The notes beneath the pieces were generated by a model, which saw nothing but the letters and a program-made list of their open reading frames with translations, was not told the DNA's origin and searched no databases. From positions 1 through 31,904 of IMG/VR virus record IMGVR_UViG_3300036979_000040: a DNA stretch of 31,904 bases; one strand, given 5' to 3'. Positions 1,839 through 18,838 of this stretch are shown here, in pieces. The position numbers and the translations under genes are program-made. Each line of letters starts with the position of its first letter. Position 1 is the stretch's first letter. The stretch comes from a virus.

Positions 1839-2324
1839 TTATTCCAACGCATCATTCAACAACACACACACTTTTGCGTATTGCCTTTGTACCTCCTTAT
1901 CGGTGTACAAAATGTTACTAAACTCCTTCACCGAATTGATGGCCGTGGAATGGTCACGATGGATGATCCGCCCAATTTCCGCCCATGGCATCCCTAACCT
2001 TTTACGGCAAATAAAGTTGAACATGTGCCGTGCGTATAACGATGCCCGTTTCCGTGATGGGCAAAGTATTTCATCGGGTGTTAACTCGGTGACTGTGCAA
2101 ACGGCCCGTAATACTTCCTTCCAATGGTTGGGGGAATCGTTAAAATCAATACGGGGATTAATTATTTCCTTTCTTAACAATTGGATTTTGGTTAGGGCTT
2201 CACTTTGTATTTGAACCAACAACAATCGTAATCGTTTAATCTCTTGTCGTTGTAGGTGTAATTGCTGGTAATGGCTTGTCATATCGTTTACAAAGGTACA
2301 TATAAACAAGTAATAAACAATCAT
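1839..2324 (-). CDS. DnaA domain IV-like DNA-binding protein
   Basis: The C-terminal ~85 residues match the DNA-binding domain IV of the bacterial initiator DnaA. They include helices around RHMFNFICRKRLGMPWAEIGRII and the signature-like HRDHSTAINSVKE. There is no AAA+ domain; the N-terminal half is charged and helical, likely coiled coil (HYQQLHLQRQEIKRL). In DnaA this domain binds DnaA boxes, so the protein may bind the phage origin, compete with host DnaA, or recognise packaging sites given its position behind TerL. The ATG at 2324 overlaps the TerL stop (ATGA). An alternative ATG at 2282 lies 8 bases below a promoter-like TACCTTTG, and would remove an odd hydrophobic N-terminus. Confidence 0.75.
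   Translation of the reverse strand: MIVYYLFICTFVNDMTSHYQQLHLQRQEIKRLRLLLVQIQSEALTKIQLLRKEIINPRIDFNDSPNHWKEVLRAVCTVTELTPDEILCPSRKRASLYARHMFNFICRKRLGMPWAEIGRIIHRDHSTAINSVKEFSNILYTDKEVQRQYAKVCVLLNDALE
2291..2320 (-). promoter_or_regulatory. Possible Bacteroidota-type promoter for the DnaA-like gene
   Basis: TACCTTTG (2298-2291) fits the -7 element TAnnTTTG, with TTG (2320-2318) 19 bases upstream as a partial -33 element. It lies inside the 5' end of the DnaA-like frame and would serve the internal start at 2282. It could arise by chance in AT-rich DNA. Confidence 0.3.
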
Positions 2325-3518
2325 CGGATGTCGTATTGCCCAAAGTTTGAACGAATCCCCAATGCCATCATTTCATGATATCGCCAACTGTCAATTGCGT
2401 GGTCTGTACCCGTTGGGGTGTTGGTTGTTCGCCCCTGGGAATCCGTATCCCAACAATAATTACGCAACTCTTTGATTAGGTTCACGCTTGTGGATGTCAC
2501 CAAATAGGATTGGGATTGCATAATTTGTATTCCATAGTTGATACTATCTTTGCCTTTGGTTACTCCCTTGATTCTCACACCATACCTCCGTATCTCGTCT
2601 ATTGACTTTGGTTCGGCACTATCTGCGTAAACGGGTACGAAGGTGGGCAACGCCTTTGCAATATCTGAATTAAGCATTCCCGTGCGATATGCCACTTCAT
2701 CAACGATTCTTTGACCATTGTATTCATAAACGGCAACGATGGCCGTAGGGTCGTTTGTATACCCGAAATCCACCCCAATGCCAACCAACCTTGCATCCTC
2801 GGGTAATGTATCGATGGTTTGCCAATTGCTGAATATAACCCCTTGTAAGTTTCCAATCTCGCCAAGACCATACACCCGCCACCAATTGGCCCAATAATTA
2901 GATGTTGACGCCCTATCCCGTGCCTTTTCAATTTCCGTGACGATTGACTTATCCAACGCTTCGTTGTCTTTGTAGGTGAGTACAATCATTTCCGCATCGG
3001 GGTCGTGTACCAATTCGCTATCCACCCAGAACTCCGCCACGGGGTTGTAATCCAAGTATATGAATTTGCGGGTACGAATTGCCATTTGGTAGTATGATTC
3101 CCAATCAATGTTATTGCACTCGTTGACAAATAACACATCACGCCTTGCACCCCTTAACTTTTGGGGTTGGTCTGCACTAAAGAACTCAATGTAACTGTCA
3201 TTGCTGAAGGTGTATGTCAATGATGATTTATTCCATTTCAATGGATCAAACATACCCACCATGTCCATAATCTTGAGAAAGTCACGGATTGCACCCCTTC
3301 GCAAATGCGGGATGGTTTCCGATACCACAGATATTTCACACTTTGCGTTTTGCACCGCGTATGTGATAAGCATTGGAATAATGCTGAATGTTTTAGAATT
3401 ATCACCCCCACCACCGAAGCAATGGGGGTTAAACCGAGGAAGATGTACCACCGCGGACAATACGGATTCTCTTCCTCAATTTTGCTATTTTAATTTGAGC
3501 AGTTGTTTGTTGTAGCAT
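2321..3518 (-). CDS. terL: Terminase large subunit (TerL), reading frame interrupted by a 40-nt gap in the Walker A motif
   Basis: TerL is the packaging ATPase and headful or end-cutting nuclease. Piece one runs from ATG 3518 to a TAA at 3431-3429 and reads KIAKLRKRIRIVRGGTSSSV. Piece two resumes at the Lys codon 3394 in another frame (KTFSIIPMLITYAV). Joined after the third Ser, they restore the P-loop GGTSSSKT and a normal N-terminus, giving 385 residues. Downstream are a Walker B-like VLFVNEC and RNase H-like nuclease Asp residues in GVDFGYTNDP, YADSAEP and GTDHAIDSW. Without joining, piece two could start only at the non-ATG codon TTG 3460, giving the odd loop GGGGDNSKT. TerL is essential in this kind of phage, so the break is likely bridged during expression rather than disabling. 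The start overlaps the end of the HNH gene by 29 bases. Confidence 0.85.
3395..3434 (-). other. Candidate translational bypass element in terL (40-nt coding gap with UUCG hairpin)
   Basis: The gap starts after TCT TCC TCG (3443-3435) and ends with TCT just before AAA 3394. GTT and a stop TAA follow the last upstream Ser codon. At the foot of the stop begins an 11-bp stem, ACCCCCATTGC (3429-3419) pairing with GTGGTGGGGGT (3414-3404), with three wobble pairs and a TTCG tetraloop closed by C-G. GATAAT then leads to the TCT landing candidate. Ser codons at both edges allow peptidyl-tRNA take-off and re-pairing. T4 gene 60 has the same parts: matched codons, an adjacent stop, a hairpin in a 50-nt gap and a homing endonuclease next door. 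The size of 40 is not a multiple of three, so simple readthrough cannot restore the frame. Confidence 0.7.
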
Positions 3519-4086
3519 ATTCCCATTTGTAATTGTAAGCCGTTTTGTATCGTTTGCGTTTTTTACAACAACCGATAATTCCAACGCTATTAAATCCTAA
3601 TTCTCTTTTGACTGTGTTAATTGATTCCCATGTTTTCACGAATGTACCATCCTTTTCGTATTGATTGATTGGTATTGAACAATTACTATCTTTTCCCATC
3701 GGTGCTTTTTGTAATCCCAAACGGAATGCGTGTAATTGATTTTCACGGCTTGTAACCCATTCCAAATTTGAACAATGGTTGTTTTCTTTGCATCCATCAA
3801 TGTGGTTTACTTCTGGTTTGTTTTCTGGGTTCTCAACAAATGTTTTTGCAACTAATCGATGAACAATGTAATACTTCCGTACTCCATCCTTAAATAATTT
3901 TACTTGCCAATACCCATTGGATTTCAAACTTTGTTTGATGTACTTCAATTTGCCATCGCTTGTGAACGACTTGCCATTCCCCCATGAATAAACATCCCCA
4001 TAGATTGTAATTGAATACAACCCTTCGTATCCTGGTATGTCAAATAAAACATCCCCATGAATTGTTTTTGCCTTATCGTGAATCAT
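3490..4086 (-). CDS. HNH homing endonuclease with NUMOD4 and NUMOD1 domains
   Basis: A free-standing homing endonuclease of about 198 residues. The N-terminus has a NUMOD4-like DNA-binding motif (IPGYEGLYSITIYGDVYSWG). The middle has the HNH_3 type nuclease HRLVAKTFVENP...VNHIDGCKENNHCSNLEWVT with its His and Asn residues. The C-terminus is NUMOD1-like (INQYEKDGTFVKTWESIN... ending YKWEYA). Such enzymes cut alleles lacking the element and spread by repair. It sits between the terminase subunit genes and its last codons overlap the terL start. Its own promoter lies 4 bases above the ATG at 4086, predicting a leaderless mRNA. An ATG at 4101 is in frame but inside the promoter. Its likely target is the uninterrupted terL P-loop region (inference). 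Confidence 0.85.
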   Translation of the reverse strand: MIHDKAKTIHGDVLFDIPGYEGLYSITIYGDVYSWGNGKSFTSDGKLKYIKQSLKSNGYWQVKLFKDGVRKYYIVHRLVAKTFVENPENKPEVNHIDGCKENNHCSNLEWVTSRENQLHAFRLGLQKAPMGKDSNCSIPINQYEKDGTFVKTWESINTVKRELGFNSVGIIGCCKKRKRYKTAYNYKWEYATTNNCSN

Positions 4087-4090
4087 ATTA

Positions 4091-4122
4091 CAAATATACA
4101 TTTGTTTTGTATGTTTTACAAC
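4091..4122 (-). promoter_or_regulatory. Promoter of the HNH homing endonuclease gene
   Basis: TATATTTG (4098-4091) is a full match to the Bacteroidota -7 element TAnnTTTG; GTTG (4122-4119) lies 20 bases upstream as a -33 element. The ATG at 4086 follows after only 4 bases, so transcripts would be leaderless or nearly so. Confidence 0.6.
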
Positions 4123-4154
4123 CCCCTTATCCTCCCCTAACTATTCGGATGCGT

Positions 4155-4541
4155 TTACGAAGTCGGGCTATCTTCGCCTGGGCGGTCGTCGTTTGTAACA
4201 TCCAAGTTTATACCATTGAAAATCGGTTTCTCTTTTTCCTCCATTACATTGTGGCTCATAGATAGTTTGCGGAGTTCTTCTTCGCTACTTATCAATTTCA
4301 TTAACGCCAATTGTAATGTGGGTTGCTCACTCAAATACCATTTGGAACGCATAGATACTTTGATGTTGGTTTTGATTTCCAACAACGCCTCTTTTATGCT
4401 TTCCGATTTTTCCAAGCCCAGGTGGTAAAATGTGCTACTTGTACATGGTAGGTATGCAATTACATCTTGAATAAAAAACAATTTGTTTTTCTTTATTGCG
4501 GCGATGGCCGTTGCTTCTAATTCGTTTCTATCGTATGCCAT
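4155..4541 (-). CDS. terS: Probable terminase small subunit
   Basis: This 128-residue protein lies one gene upstream of TerL in transcription order, separated only by the homing endonuclease. It starts MAYDRNELEATAIAAIKKNKLFFIQDVIAYLPC, which reads as an N-terminal helix-turn-helix for recognising the packaging site. A conserved-looking stretch MRSKWYLSEQPTLQLALMKLI follows, typical of small terminases of Bacteroidota phages, and then an acidic disordered tail. It would bind phage DNA and load TerL. Its ATG overlaps the stop of the preceding 65-residue gene (TAATG). The call rests on family appearance and synteny. Confidence 0.75.
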   Translation of the reverse strand: MAYDRNELEATAIAAIKKNKLFFIQDVIAYLPCTSSTFYHLGLEKSESIKEALLEIKTNIKVSMRSKWYLSEQPTLQLALMKLISSEEELRKLSMSHNVMEEKEKPIFNGINLDVTNDDRPGEDSPTS

Positions 4542-6766: not shown

Positions 6767-7338
6767 AACTTATCTTTTTCTTCTTTGAGATACATCATAA
6801 TCATTTGGCCGACATAGGCCCCGCGTTCACGCCAAAACTTCACCAATTGGTACGCTTCTTCGTAATGGTCTGGTTCAAACTCAATTTGGATGGCTTTCTT
6901 TACCCCATCGGCCATGTCCGAAAGTTCGTCGGATAAATCTTCCTCATCCAAAAGTGAGTAATCCACCTCAACGGGTTGTTGCCAAACATCCAAACCCCAC
7001 GCGTTTAACAATTCTGGTTCCCATTCGTTGGCTAAAATGTCCCAATCCCATTCTCCGAATCCGACATTGTCCTTAATGATAAACTCTTTTTGTTGTTCTT
7101 CGGTTAAATCGGATGCCTTAATGATTGGAACTTCTTTTAATCCAACTTCTTGCACCGCTTTTAATCTCATGTTGCCACCCAAAACAACCATATCATCATT
7201 CACCACGATTGGGCGTAGATTCAACATTTGCGGGAACTCCTTAATTGATTTAACTAACTTCTTGAATTTATCATCTTTTATAACCCTTGGGTTGTTTTCG
7301 TTGGCGATGATGTCCTTTGTTTTAACAATTTGTATCAT
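6763..7338 (-). CDS. ParB-like N-terminal domain protein
   Basis: The first ~90 residues form a ParB/Sulfiredoxin-type fold. They carry an NPR motif (residues 16-18), VVLGGNMRLKAVQEVGLKEVPII with GGNMR at 54-58, and a following helix EEQQKEFIIKDNVGFGEWDWD. The C-terminal half is acidic and helical, without the HTH of chromosomal ParB. Related phage proteins act as nucleases, NTP-binding switches or, in modification gene clusters, partners of base-modifying enzymes. Its coupling to the glycosyltransferase suggests the last role, though it could also serve packaging or replication. Confidence 0.75.
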   Translation of the reverse strand: MIQIVKTKDIIANENNPRVIKDDKFKKLVKSIKEFPQMLNLRPIVVNDDMVVLGGNMRLKAVQEVGLKEVPIIKASDLTEEQQKEFIIKDNVGFGEWDWDILANEWEPELLNAWGLDVWQQPVEVDYSLLDEEDLSDELSDMADGVKKAIQIEFEPDHYEEAYQLVKFWRERGAYVGQMIMMYLKEEKDKL

Positions 7339-7586
7339 TTGTTTAATTTTATTTGGTGTGTTATAATTAAAAAATCCATGTGTTGTTTCTTATCGCCGTA
7401 TTTAATGTGGCAAGGTCGACAAAGTGCTTGTAAATTCTCGATGACATCCTTTTTGGTTGTGCCTCCCATTCCCCGTGGTTGGATGTGGTGGATATCAATT
7501 GCCTTAGATCCGCACACCTCACACGGGATAAAATCGGTTGTGTCATAACCAAAGTATGTTAAATAAATCTTTGTGTGTGGCTTCAT
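7335..7586 (-). CDS. HNH endonuclease domain protein (83 aa)
   Basis: A single-domain HNH protein: zinc pair CEVC, then DIHHIQPRGMGGTTKKDVIENLQALCRPCHIKYGD, which contains the His-His catalytic pair, the Asn of ENL and the second Cys pair CRPC. It lacks NUMOD domains, so it is less likely a homing enzyme. Such short HNH proteins occur in phage replication or packaging gene blocks and nick DNA or cut branched structures. It overlaps its neighbours by 4 bases downstream and 44 upstream. Confidence 0.8.
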   Translation of the reverse strand: MKPHTKIYLTYFGYDTTDFIPCEVCGSKAIDIHHIQPRGMGGTTKKDVIENLQALCRPCHIKYGDKKQHMDFLIITHQIKLNK

Positions 7587-17033: not shown

Positions 17034-17711
17034 TTATGTATAAATGAATTTTGTTTTGTTTGTTAAATTGCCATTGAGCATTGCTCTAAATGAAGATTGA
17101 GGGAAATTGTATAAATCACTCACTTCTTTTGCACACGAATAATAAACGCCCGTCAAAGTATCTAAAACAATCTTTGCCTTTGGGGCTCCACCATATGACC
17201 GTGCTTTTGATAACTTATTTCTTGTTTCTTGTGATGCAATTGTTCCCTTTTTTGCCTCACTTAATTTTGGGTATTTTTTCCCTATTCTGCTTAGTGCCAT
17301 TTTTGACTTGCTTTCATCCGAATGAGTTTTACCAAAGAAGGCATTTTTTTCACCCCATAAATCACGTTTTTTTGCGGCTTCTCTGATTCTTTCTAATGCT
17401 TCTCCCGTGTATATTCTCCCCTTTGAACTTGATGCAATTGGGCATAAATTACAACACCATTCATCATTAAAATGAGCATCAATGTATCGTTGTTCTAAAA
17501 AATCCAAATGTTCATTTGCACAATGCACAATGATTTGAAATTTGAACATCCCGTATTTGTTTACAATGGCTTGAATTTTTGGGTTTCTATGTTTGTTTTT
17601 AGATGCTGATTCTTTGTGCGTACCTTTCCTACGCTGCAAATCAACGGCTTGACCATAATAATAATAATCATTATTATCCCAATACAAACGATATATTCCT
17701 CCTTTATTCAT
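17034..17711 (-). CDS. GIY-YIG homing endonuclease with NUMOD motifs
   Basis: The start is ATG 17711, which overlaps the fibre stop (TAATG), giving 225 residues. The N-terminal nuclease reads GGIYRLYW...YYYYGQAVDLQRRKGTHK, with catalytic Tyr residues and Arg. LDFLEQRYIDAHF supplies the conserved Glu. NUMOD3-like repeats follow (GEKNAFFGKTHSDESKSKMALSRIGKK), then a C-terminal HTH-like NUMOD1 region. Such free-standing enzymes cut relatives lacking them, usually near their own position, so the target is likely the fibre 3' end or the following gene. Confidence 0.85.
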   Translation of the reverse strand: MNKGGIYRLYWDNNDYYYYGQAVDLQRRKGTHKESASKNKHRNPKIQAIVNKYGMFKFQIIVHCANEHLDFLEQRYIDAHFNDEWCCNLCPIASSSKGRIYTGEALERIREAAKKRDLWGEKNAFFGKTHSDESKSKMALSRIGKKYPKLSEAKKGTIASQETRNKLSKARSYGGAPKAKIVLDTLTGVYYSCAKEVSDLYNFPQSSFRAMLNGNLTNKTKFIYT

Positions 17712-18838
17712 TAATGCAAATCTACCCAAGAAGTTCCATTATATACACACAATTTGAATGTAGTTATGTCCATTACAATCAAGCCCGTGGCGGGTGTGGC
17801 GATGGCGTTCTTTTGTGTTGTATTCATTACGGGTGGCAAAAACCCTTTTGTTGTACTAACAACTTCTAATTGTGCAGAAGCAACGGGGTTGACTGCACCT
17901 TTTCCTATTGAGATACCACCCAAATAACCTTGTAAAATTTTATTTCCTCCAATATTCAAATTAACAGTTGAACCACCCGCTTGGAACGAACCGCCCGAAC
18001 CCTCGTTATACCCACCCTCAAAACCATTTGAATTATTTAATCTCAAATAAGCATTTTCGCCAACACCTGCAATGTAATCCCTAATCAGTATTTTGCCATC
18101 ATCCCTTGCGGTCAATGTTGCCGTCCCCGCACTATTCTGCACCAACAAAGATGTTGTGGCTGATGTTGAGCCGCTTCCTTTGAGATGTACCAATGTGTTT
18201 GATGCTGCGAATGAATAATCTTTGTTGACTGCAATACCACCCGTTGTAGGCACAAAACGCATTTGAGTATTTGATAACACATTTCCCGAAATGATATCAT
18301 AGTCAGCAATTTTTGCAGTACTCATTACAACTGCACTATTATTCGCTGAATTATGAACTCTCAGTATGTTCCCTCCAACCGAATCTTGAACCAATAACGA
18401 TGTACTCGTAGTTAATTGGTCAACCCCGACTATATGCGTTGTGGCAGTAGGTGAATTTGTGCGAATCCCCAACCGATTATTGGTATCATCCCAAAATAGA
18501 TTTGTGGCATCACTTGCAAACGCTGAACCATTGCTGAACTGAATCGCACCCGCAACACCGCTTGGTTGTGGTGTAACAATGTTACCCGAACCCAAAATAG
18601 TGGTTCCATTGATGGTTTTGATGTTTGTTCCCGATACCAATGTTGGTTGCAAAGTTGTTCCCGCTTGGGTTAGTGTACCCGTGAAATTGATGCCCGTTGT
18701 GGATGCCTCCATCGGTAGGTTTGTACCCAATCCATCGGATAGCACTTTCAATGCCCCCGTTATTGGTCCGTTGTCGCCTACCTTAATCAAGGCATCGTAT
18801 GTTGTTGCGGGGGTTAACCCCGTTAATGAAATTCCCAT
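17711..18838 (-). CDS. Tail fibre / receptor-binding protein candidate
   Basis: A 375-residue, Gly/Ser/Thr/Asn-rich beta-repeat protein. It contains fibre-type motifs: NGTTILGSGNIV, GAIQFSNGSAFASDATNLFWDDTNNRLGIRTNSP, and repeated LLVQDSVGGN / LLVQNSAGTA units. The C-terminus, STTKGFLPPVMNTTQKNAIATPATGLIVMDITT..VYNGTSW, is a common ending of phage fibres and structural repeats. It likely forms a trimeric fibre that binds host surface sugars or proteins. No S74 chaperone or carbohydrate-cutting domain is seen. Confidence 0.75.
   Translation of the reverse strand: MGISLTGLTPATTYDALIKVGDNGPITGALKVLSDGLGTNLPMEASTTGINFTGTLTQAGTTLQPTLVSGTNIKTINGTTILGSGNIVTPQPSGVAGAIQFSNGSAFASDATNLFWDDTNNRLGIRTNSPTATTHIVGVDQLTTSTSLLVQDSVGGNILRVHNSANNSAVVMSTAKIADYDIISGNVLSNTQMRFVPTTGGIAVNKDYSFAASNTLVHLKGSGSTSATTSLLVQNSAGTATLTARDDGKILIRDYIAGVGENAYLRLNNSNGFEGGYNEGSGGSFQAGGSTVNLNIGGNKILQGYLGGISIGKGAVNPVASAQLEVVSTTKGFLPPVMNTTQKNAIATPATGLIVMDITTFKLCVYNGTSWVDLH

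Follow-up and report, generated by a model that had tools for sequence, protein, structure and literature searches.

The window analysed here, a complete IMG/VR virus record of 31,904 nt (IMGVR_UViG_3300036979_000040), carries on its minus strand a terminase gene, terL, that is interrupted within its Walker A codons by a short gap, with an HNH endonuclease gene overlapping its start. Very probably, the HNH gene and the gap belong to a homing cassette inserted among the Walker A codons, and the gap is hopped by translating ribosomes. Several components of this picture can be read directly from the sequences, namely the boundaries of the element, its empty and occupied sites, a truncated copy of the recipient gene, matched codons flanking the gap, two RNA stems and selection on both halves of terL. 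All gap-bearing sequences considered are uncultured metagenomic contigs; the locus in the window is labelled WIN and the other loci compared carry L numbers.

In the window, a recoded 5′ exon of terL (MLQQTTAQIKIAKLRKRIRIVRGGTSSS, 3435-3518, with its ATG at 3518-3516), conserved as protein, ends with the take-off codon TCG (Ser, 3435-3437), the final residue before the gap. The reading frame, MLQ...RGGTSSS, then runs into GTT TAA inside the gap, which occupies 37 nt (3398-3434) and is made up of the spacer GTT-TAA, a hairpin of ACCCCCATTGC-TTCG-GTGGTGGGGGT (3429-3404) and the spacer GATAAT. The landing codon TCT (Ser, 3395-3397) follows, succeeded by AAA ACA for the Lys-Thr of Walker A, and the rest of TerL (KTFSIIPML...) resumes after it in a 3′ exon of 357 aa from KTFSII (2321-3394), which is assigned to Terminase_3 and Terminase_3C by Pfam and PHROG matches and is 90-95% identical to gap-free TerLs. 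For terL, gap lengths (34-45 nt) are counted with the landing codon included, which gives 40 nt for the window and 37 nt without it. So counted, the gap lies exactly where the initial annotation had placed it (3434-3395), beyond 55 nt that separate it from the HNH stop and end with the take-off codon (3435).

At least 36 distinct IMG/VR loci with a gap at the Walker A motif of TerL were recovered by pattern scans, spread over three TerL families and several element types, and among 80 TerL relatives the gap is present in 14 while GGTSSSKT is contiguous in 66. Because about 30 class-1 contigs, drawn from many metagenomes, share the window's insert, and independent versions are found in other TerL families, the gap is neither a chance event nor an assembly error, and its original description in terL is upheld. 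Its length is 40, 39 or 34 nt in the window's TerL family, 42 nt in a second family (GGTSAGKT) and 43, 44 or 45 nt in a third (YGGAAGGGK(S/T)), the exact site shifting by one to three codons from family to family. These lengths represent all three frames, and the multiple-of-3 variants all contain an in-frame stop. Excising the gap restores Walker A in every case and gives an exact GGTSSSKT in the window; GGTSSSKT or GGTSAGKT is found in about 200 gap-free TerLs. Eleven of the 15 matches to a blind structural pattern fell at the Walker A of terL. The remaining matches outside terL and a DNA polymerase B gene described below (most of L266-L313, together with L314 and L317-L319) showed no matched-codon joining of a recognised gene and were mostly open frames or terminator-like. 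Annotated phages searched for the locus returned only distant HNH genes as DNA matches, and a search of GTDB genome contigs with TerL returned a single distant metagenome-assembled genome and nothing else. Among the cultured phages considered (FPSV-S2, phi10:1 and 11b), terL is annotated as one uninterrupted gene in each, and no gap carrier was found.

As the frame is interrupted in each contig, the insert might inactivate terL, and the loci would then represent decaying or defective genomes. Both exons, however, carry more synonymous than nonsynonymous change, with class-1 pairwise codon differences of 1851:564 in the 5′ exon and 32769:11026 in the 3′ exon, and the 357-residue 3′ exon is open in almost every class-1 contig that covers it completely. 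Selection on both exons rules out this pseudogene reading, to which we give next to no credence. The use of an internal TTG (3460) as the start of TerL in another frame, giving MSAVVHLPRFNPHCFGGGGDNSKTFSII with a Walker A-like sequence and requiring no recoding, fares little better. This ORF is open in the window and in the other 40-nt variants, and its GGGGDNSKT fits a loose P-loop pattern, but the 39-, 34-, 42-, 43-, 44- and 45-nt variants have either a stop or no P-loop in that frame, and the 5′ exon is conserved as protein at every gap-bearing locus. An internal start, which we consider highly improbable, was ruled out on the strength of the gap-length variants. The other-frame reading of the 40-nt gap in the window (3395-3460, minus strand), FGGGGDNSKTFS, is P-loop-like and in frame with TerL, a likeness that is destroyed by the other gap lengths and is probably a coincidence.

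Judged from these sequences, programmed translational bypassing is the best explanation of the gap, which is an untranslated insert in a conserved ORF, is absent from relatives, and is flanked by two halves that restore the protein when joined. With one exception among the element types, take-off and landing codons are synonymous, their third positions mostly differing: the pairs are TCG/TCT, TCG/TCA and TCT/TCT in serine P-loops, and GCC/GCA, GCC/GCT, GCT/GCA and GCT/GCG in alanine P-loops. The residue at take-off and landing differs by TerL family yet matches within each pair, and this matching of amino acids favours re-pairing of the peptidyl-tRNA, whereas splicing does not predict matched codons. 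The gap could alternatively be removed from the mRNA by excision and ligation, as a mini-intron within an otherwise unchanged cassette, since precise excision would yield an identical protein and the stable hairpin, flanked by short conserved stretches, could act as a signal for RNA processing. We regard such a mini-intron as unlikely, because it predicts neither same-amino-acid flanking codons with differing third positions nor a 5′ stem-loop that runs up to the take-off codon, and no Rfam RNA family matches the window. At 34-45 nt, the gaps are also far shorter than any self-splicing intron known to us.

The RNA features that accompany bypassing in this reading are found on both sides of the take-off codon. 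The 101-nt RNA around the window's gap folds better than shuffled sequences (z = -3.6), and the gap hairpin itself is strong, with a C(UUCG)G loop. A hairpin is present in 16 of 16 element variants, always built on a C5/G5 base and starting 6 nt after take-off (7 nt in the polymerase gene), and its upper pairs vary with pairing mostly kept (16/16 for pairs 6 and 7, 15/16 for pair 8, 12/15 for pair 9 and 14/15 for pair 10). On the other side, a 5′ stem-loop lies at 3436-3477 in the window (arms 3477-3470 and 3443-3436), ending at the take-off codon. Both structures recur in sequences that are unrelated to one another. Compared with synonymous recodings, the 5′ exon has a mean z of -2.5 at gap-bearing and -0.8 at gap-free loci (Mann-Whitney p 1.6e-9), in a test that ignores shared ancestry and whose p-value is made optimistic by related sequences. 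For single loci the values are z -1.5 in the window and a weak z -0.14 at L044. Basic residues (LRKRIRIV, LKKRIKI) lie before the gap.

The proposal of the initial annotation that HNH gene and gap make up a single mobile cassette is strongly supported by what lies upstream of the endonuclease. Nine loci carry an HNH gene of the window's type (WIN, L008, L021, L049, L069, L088, L098, L102 and L105), and in all nine, as well as in L306 and L322 with related HNH genes, a truncated terL start of the gap-free type stands directly upstream of the HNH gene. This copy spans the ATG to the GGNGG of Walker A (nt 1-71) in the nine loci and in L306, and in L322 the similarity stops slightly earlier. In the window, the 'fossil' of the recipient's 5′ exon (MLQTTTAQAKIARLRKRIRIVRGG, 4131-4201) is broken at the GG of Walker A with a TAA directly after it. 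In blastn comparisons with gap-free terL 5′ exons it reaches 76% identity, and the best matches of the other eight copies reach 93-100%, or 96-100% in the comparison with extant gap-free alleles. The start of the fossil is overlapped by the 3′ end of the gene for the TerS-like small terminase subunit (4155-4541, an ORF with the same junction in relatives), like the TerS/TerL overlap of gap-free relatives.

Empty and occupied sites that are nearly identical allow the element to be delimited. The occupied L021 and the gap-free L020 are 96% identical in terS, 100% in the truncated copy and 94% in the 3′ part of terL, and the occupied allele has 732 nt in place of 10 nt of the empty allele, right before the Ser codon that serves as the landing codon. 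The insertion point thus defined lies between GG(T/A)GG and the Ser codon preceding the Lys of Walker A, and the cassette measures 732-733 nt (733 nt in the window, 3398-4130, by the empty-site comparison). It follows from the truncated copy and the empty-site comparison that putative promoter, HNH gene, recoded 5′ exon and gap entered as one block; endonuclease and insert share a defined site at which empty alleles are extant. The recoded exon keeps its amino acids and uses codons unlike those of gap-free alleles. On the TerL protein tree, the gap label requires at least 10 changes by well-supported branches, and differentiation between gap and gap-free alleles has its maximum (0.52) in the 42 nt before the gap and falls to about 0 beyond 200 nt downstream. 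The scatter of gap alleles and this local peak indicate that the gap with its flank has moved between terL backgrounds.

The HNH gene (3490-4101, 203 aa) splits the terminase genes and ends within the start of terL, as described initially: the order is TerS, HNH, terL, and the last 29 nt of the HNH ORF overlap the terL start. The ORF matches Pfam HNH_3 (PF13392) at E 9.6e-8, above the cut-off, and phrog_59 at E 4.8e-43. Of the NUMOD4-HNH-NUMOD1 architecture first assigned to it, the HNH domain therefore stands, NUMOD4 is a weak Pfam match below the cut-off (E 1.4e-3) and NUMOD1 was undetected by Pfam. Among the nine orthologues, 1166 synonymous pairwise codon differences are found against 768 nonsynonymous ones. 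Direct reading of 4091-4121 reveals promoter-like elements, TTG at 4121-4119 and TATATTTG at 4098-4091, and this TTG-N20-TATATTTG pair, some 5 nt before an ATG inside the HNH ORF (4086), is kept in the loci of the window's type; TATATTTG occurs at L322 and L295 as well. By consensus, the pair resembles Bacteroidota-type promoter elements. The gene had been credited with its own leaderless promoter, and a conserved promoter-like pair is indeed present, from which a leaderless transcript is plausible.

We propose the following homing cycle, whose first steps are modelled on T4 gene 60 and its neighbouring endonuclease (PMC5009743). The HNH enzyme would nick gap-free terL within the Walker A codons, with a predicted cut within GGNGG/NACNTCNNNN/TCN, and repair off a cassette-bearing phage would bring in the HNH gene together with a fresh terL start and the gap. 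Upstream, the original start of the recipient's terL would stay in truncated form, and the recoded start would re-found the gene. As the gap would separate the recoded exon from the recipient's remaining codons, the presumed endonuclease target would not be re-created. During translation, the peptidyl-tRNA-Ser would leave TCG, the mRNA would slide over the hairpin and the tRNA would re-pair with TCT before the Lys codon, giving a normal TerL. The parts of the whole that we infer are the cutting of gap-free terL, the protective effect of the gap, and hopping.

Several observations weigh against this account. The cut site of the HNH enzyme is deduced from the insertion site only, and bypassing is argued from sequence. 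The codon following take-off is a sense codon (GTT, TGT or TTT) and not a stop as in T4, a stop appearing one codon later or further inside. L280 and L306 land on GTT after a GCC take-off, the sole mismatch among the element types. Lastly, most gap-bearing loci (about two thirds) have no adjacent HNH gene. As a separate point, the GCC/GTT pair of L280 and L306 is a possible test case for wobble tolerance at landing.

Co-occurrence in relatives, which had been put forward as a check on the cassette, is accordingly imperfect. Of 33 loci with the gap, 11 have an HNH gene adjoining terL, against 4 of 166 without it, an enrichment that speaks for the cassette, although the counts ignore shared ancestry. 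HNH genes are also found beside gap-free terL at L033, L038, L155, L173 and L175. The HNH gene and the gap might then be independent passengers that both favour the terS-terL junction and the Walker A region, their linkage being coincidental. The many HNH-less gap loci, the HNH genes at gap-free L033, L155, L173 and L175 and the other genes at the junction (L044, L082, L097) would fit such independence. We nevertheless think it decidedly improbable, as the truncated terL start is broken at essentially one place in 11 loci with both HNH gene and gap, terL resuming after the gap, and all nine orthologous HNH genes found occur with the gap. L033, where the HNH gene is present and the 5′ exon is gap-free from nt 28, appears to be a recombinant with a regained gap-free exon, and was dismissed as a counter-example on that account. 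At HNH-less gap loci, the end of the 5′ exon is recoded and, in the commonest type, its first third is nearer to gap-free alleles, a pattern that fits loss of the HNH gene by recombination between the two exon copies. The sequences appear better explained by secondary loss or recombination than by independence.

The terS-terL junction also holds other genes. Other HNH genes, unrelated or distantly related, occur there in L104, L295, L155, L173 and L175, and no truncated terL copy was detected at L155, L173 or L175. Non-HNH ORFs occupy it at L044 (-268 to +29 of the terL ATG), L082, L004 and L097, those of L044 and L082 having their ends within terL, like the HNH gene.

The blind structural pattern was matched, too, by a fragment of a DNA polymerase B gene (polB) in the large phage contigs L278 and L301 (minus strand; about 2512-2373 in L301), which shares the gap architecture of the terL loci. 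The junction reads ...YYNALQLAL(CTT), a 37-nt gap, and then CTA KLVLNGSYGAF. In the closest relative, a 642-kb phage, the gene is contiguous, and Leu residue 34 is encoded once there and twice in L278 and L301. The RNA folds with z -8.4, its long 5′ stem extending up to the take-off codon. Just upstream, on the opposite strand, lies a putative homing endonuclease (DUF7487, phrog_3339; L301:2590-3693).

A homing gene coupled to a hopped hairpin was previously known mainly from T4. There, mobA is the HNH endonuclease gene next to the bypass gene 60 (NC_000866; PMC2988022), and mobE lies between nrdA and nrdB, so that the MobE named as precedent in the initial annotation was a misnomer. Like gene 60 and mobA, the loci described here combine an HNH homing gene with a nearby essential gene that has an untranslated hairpin insert (PMC5009743; PMC2988022). 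They also share a take-off hairpin with a C(UUCG)G tetraloop (in the window's class), a proposed protection from the nuclease by the gap, and a 5′ stem-loop before take-off, which in gene 60 has been proposed to pull the mRNA (PMC5009743). The differences are considerable. The target is the Walker A of terL rather than a topoisomerase, in different phages and with different elements, and a sense codon rather than a stop follows take-off, a stop at that position not being required in mitochondrial bypassing. The hairpin begins about 6 nt past the take-off codon, whereas that of T4 includes it. Unlike in T4, a recoded 5′ exon is part of the cassette, the recipient's own start persists as a truncated remnant, and extant alleles include empty, occupied and HNH-less ones.

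Other known systems resemble the terL loci in single respects. The byp elements of Magnusiomyces capitatus mitochondria are likewise insertions tolerated because they are bypassed (PMC5009743). They are, however, found at 81 sites in many mitochondrial genes and are said to be largely context-independent (PMC5009743), whereas nearly all known copies of the elements here lie at a single active-site motif, where local RNA structure is strong and an HNH gene is associated. Free-standing HNH and GIY-YIG endonucleases of T-even phages (MobE, SegF, SegG) also lie beside their targets and spread by homing, but have neither a bypassed gap nor a replacement exon (PMC2988022). Bypassing has been suggested in another phage terminase gene, and the likeness is the terminase gene. 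The gap in that case is much shorter, tied to UUA and thought to be regulatory, and the passage on it describes no homing cassette. No previous account of bypassing next to terL in phages of Bacteroidota was found in the literature searched, subscription journals and preprints lying outside the search.

Three further features of the window, all on the minus strand, lie outside the cassette. Directly after terL, 1839-2324 encodes a DnaA C-terminal helix-turn-helix domain (PF08299, E 1.7e-14), which is unusual for a packaging cluster. A GIY-YIG homing endonuclease with NUMOD3 (PF01541, PF07460) at 17034-17729 is a second mobile endonuclease of the same phage, and a small ORF at 7335-7586 resembles, by eye only, a Cys/His HNH nuclease (CEVCGSKAIDIHHIQPRGMGG...CRPCH).

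Efficient bypassing has so far been represented by one phage gene, T4 gene 60, and by yeast mitochondria, and what is thought about its requirements and origin rests on very few cases. The loci described here add dozens of variants found in nature, which cover about five element types and two gene families, differ in take-off residue and gap length, and now allow comparative rules of bypassing to be drawn and tested directly. The homing cycle is moreover visible in sequence as empty alleles, occupied alleles with a truncated recipient exon, HNH-less alleles and recombinant alleles, so that protection by a bypass gap, as proposed, can be tested directly. Unrelated phages, in several TerL families and in the polB of huge phages, would have repeatedly gained short hairpin gaps in active-site codons. 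An HNH cassette, where there is one, would restore the essential gene by its recoded exon, and ribosome hopping would both neutralise and immunise the site. On balance, we consider it fairly likely that homing protected by bypassing is a general strategy rather than a curiosity of T4.
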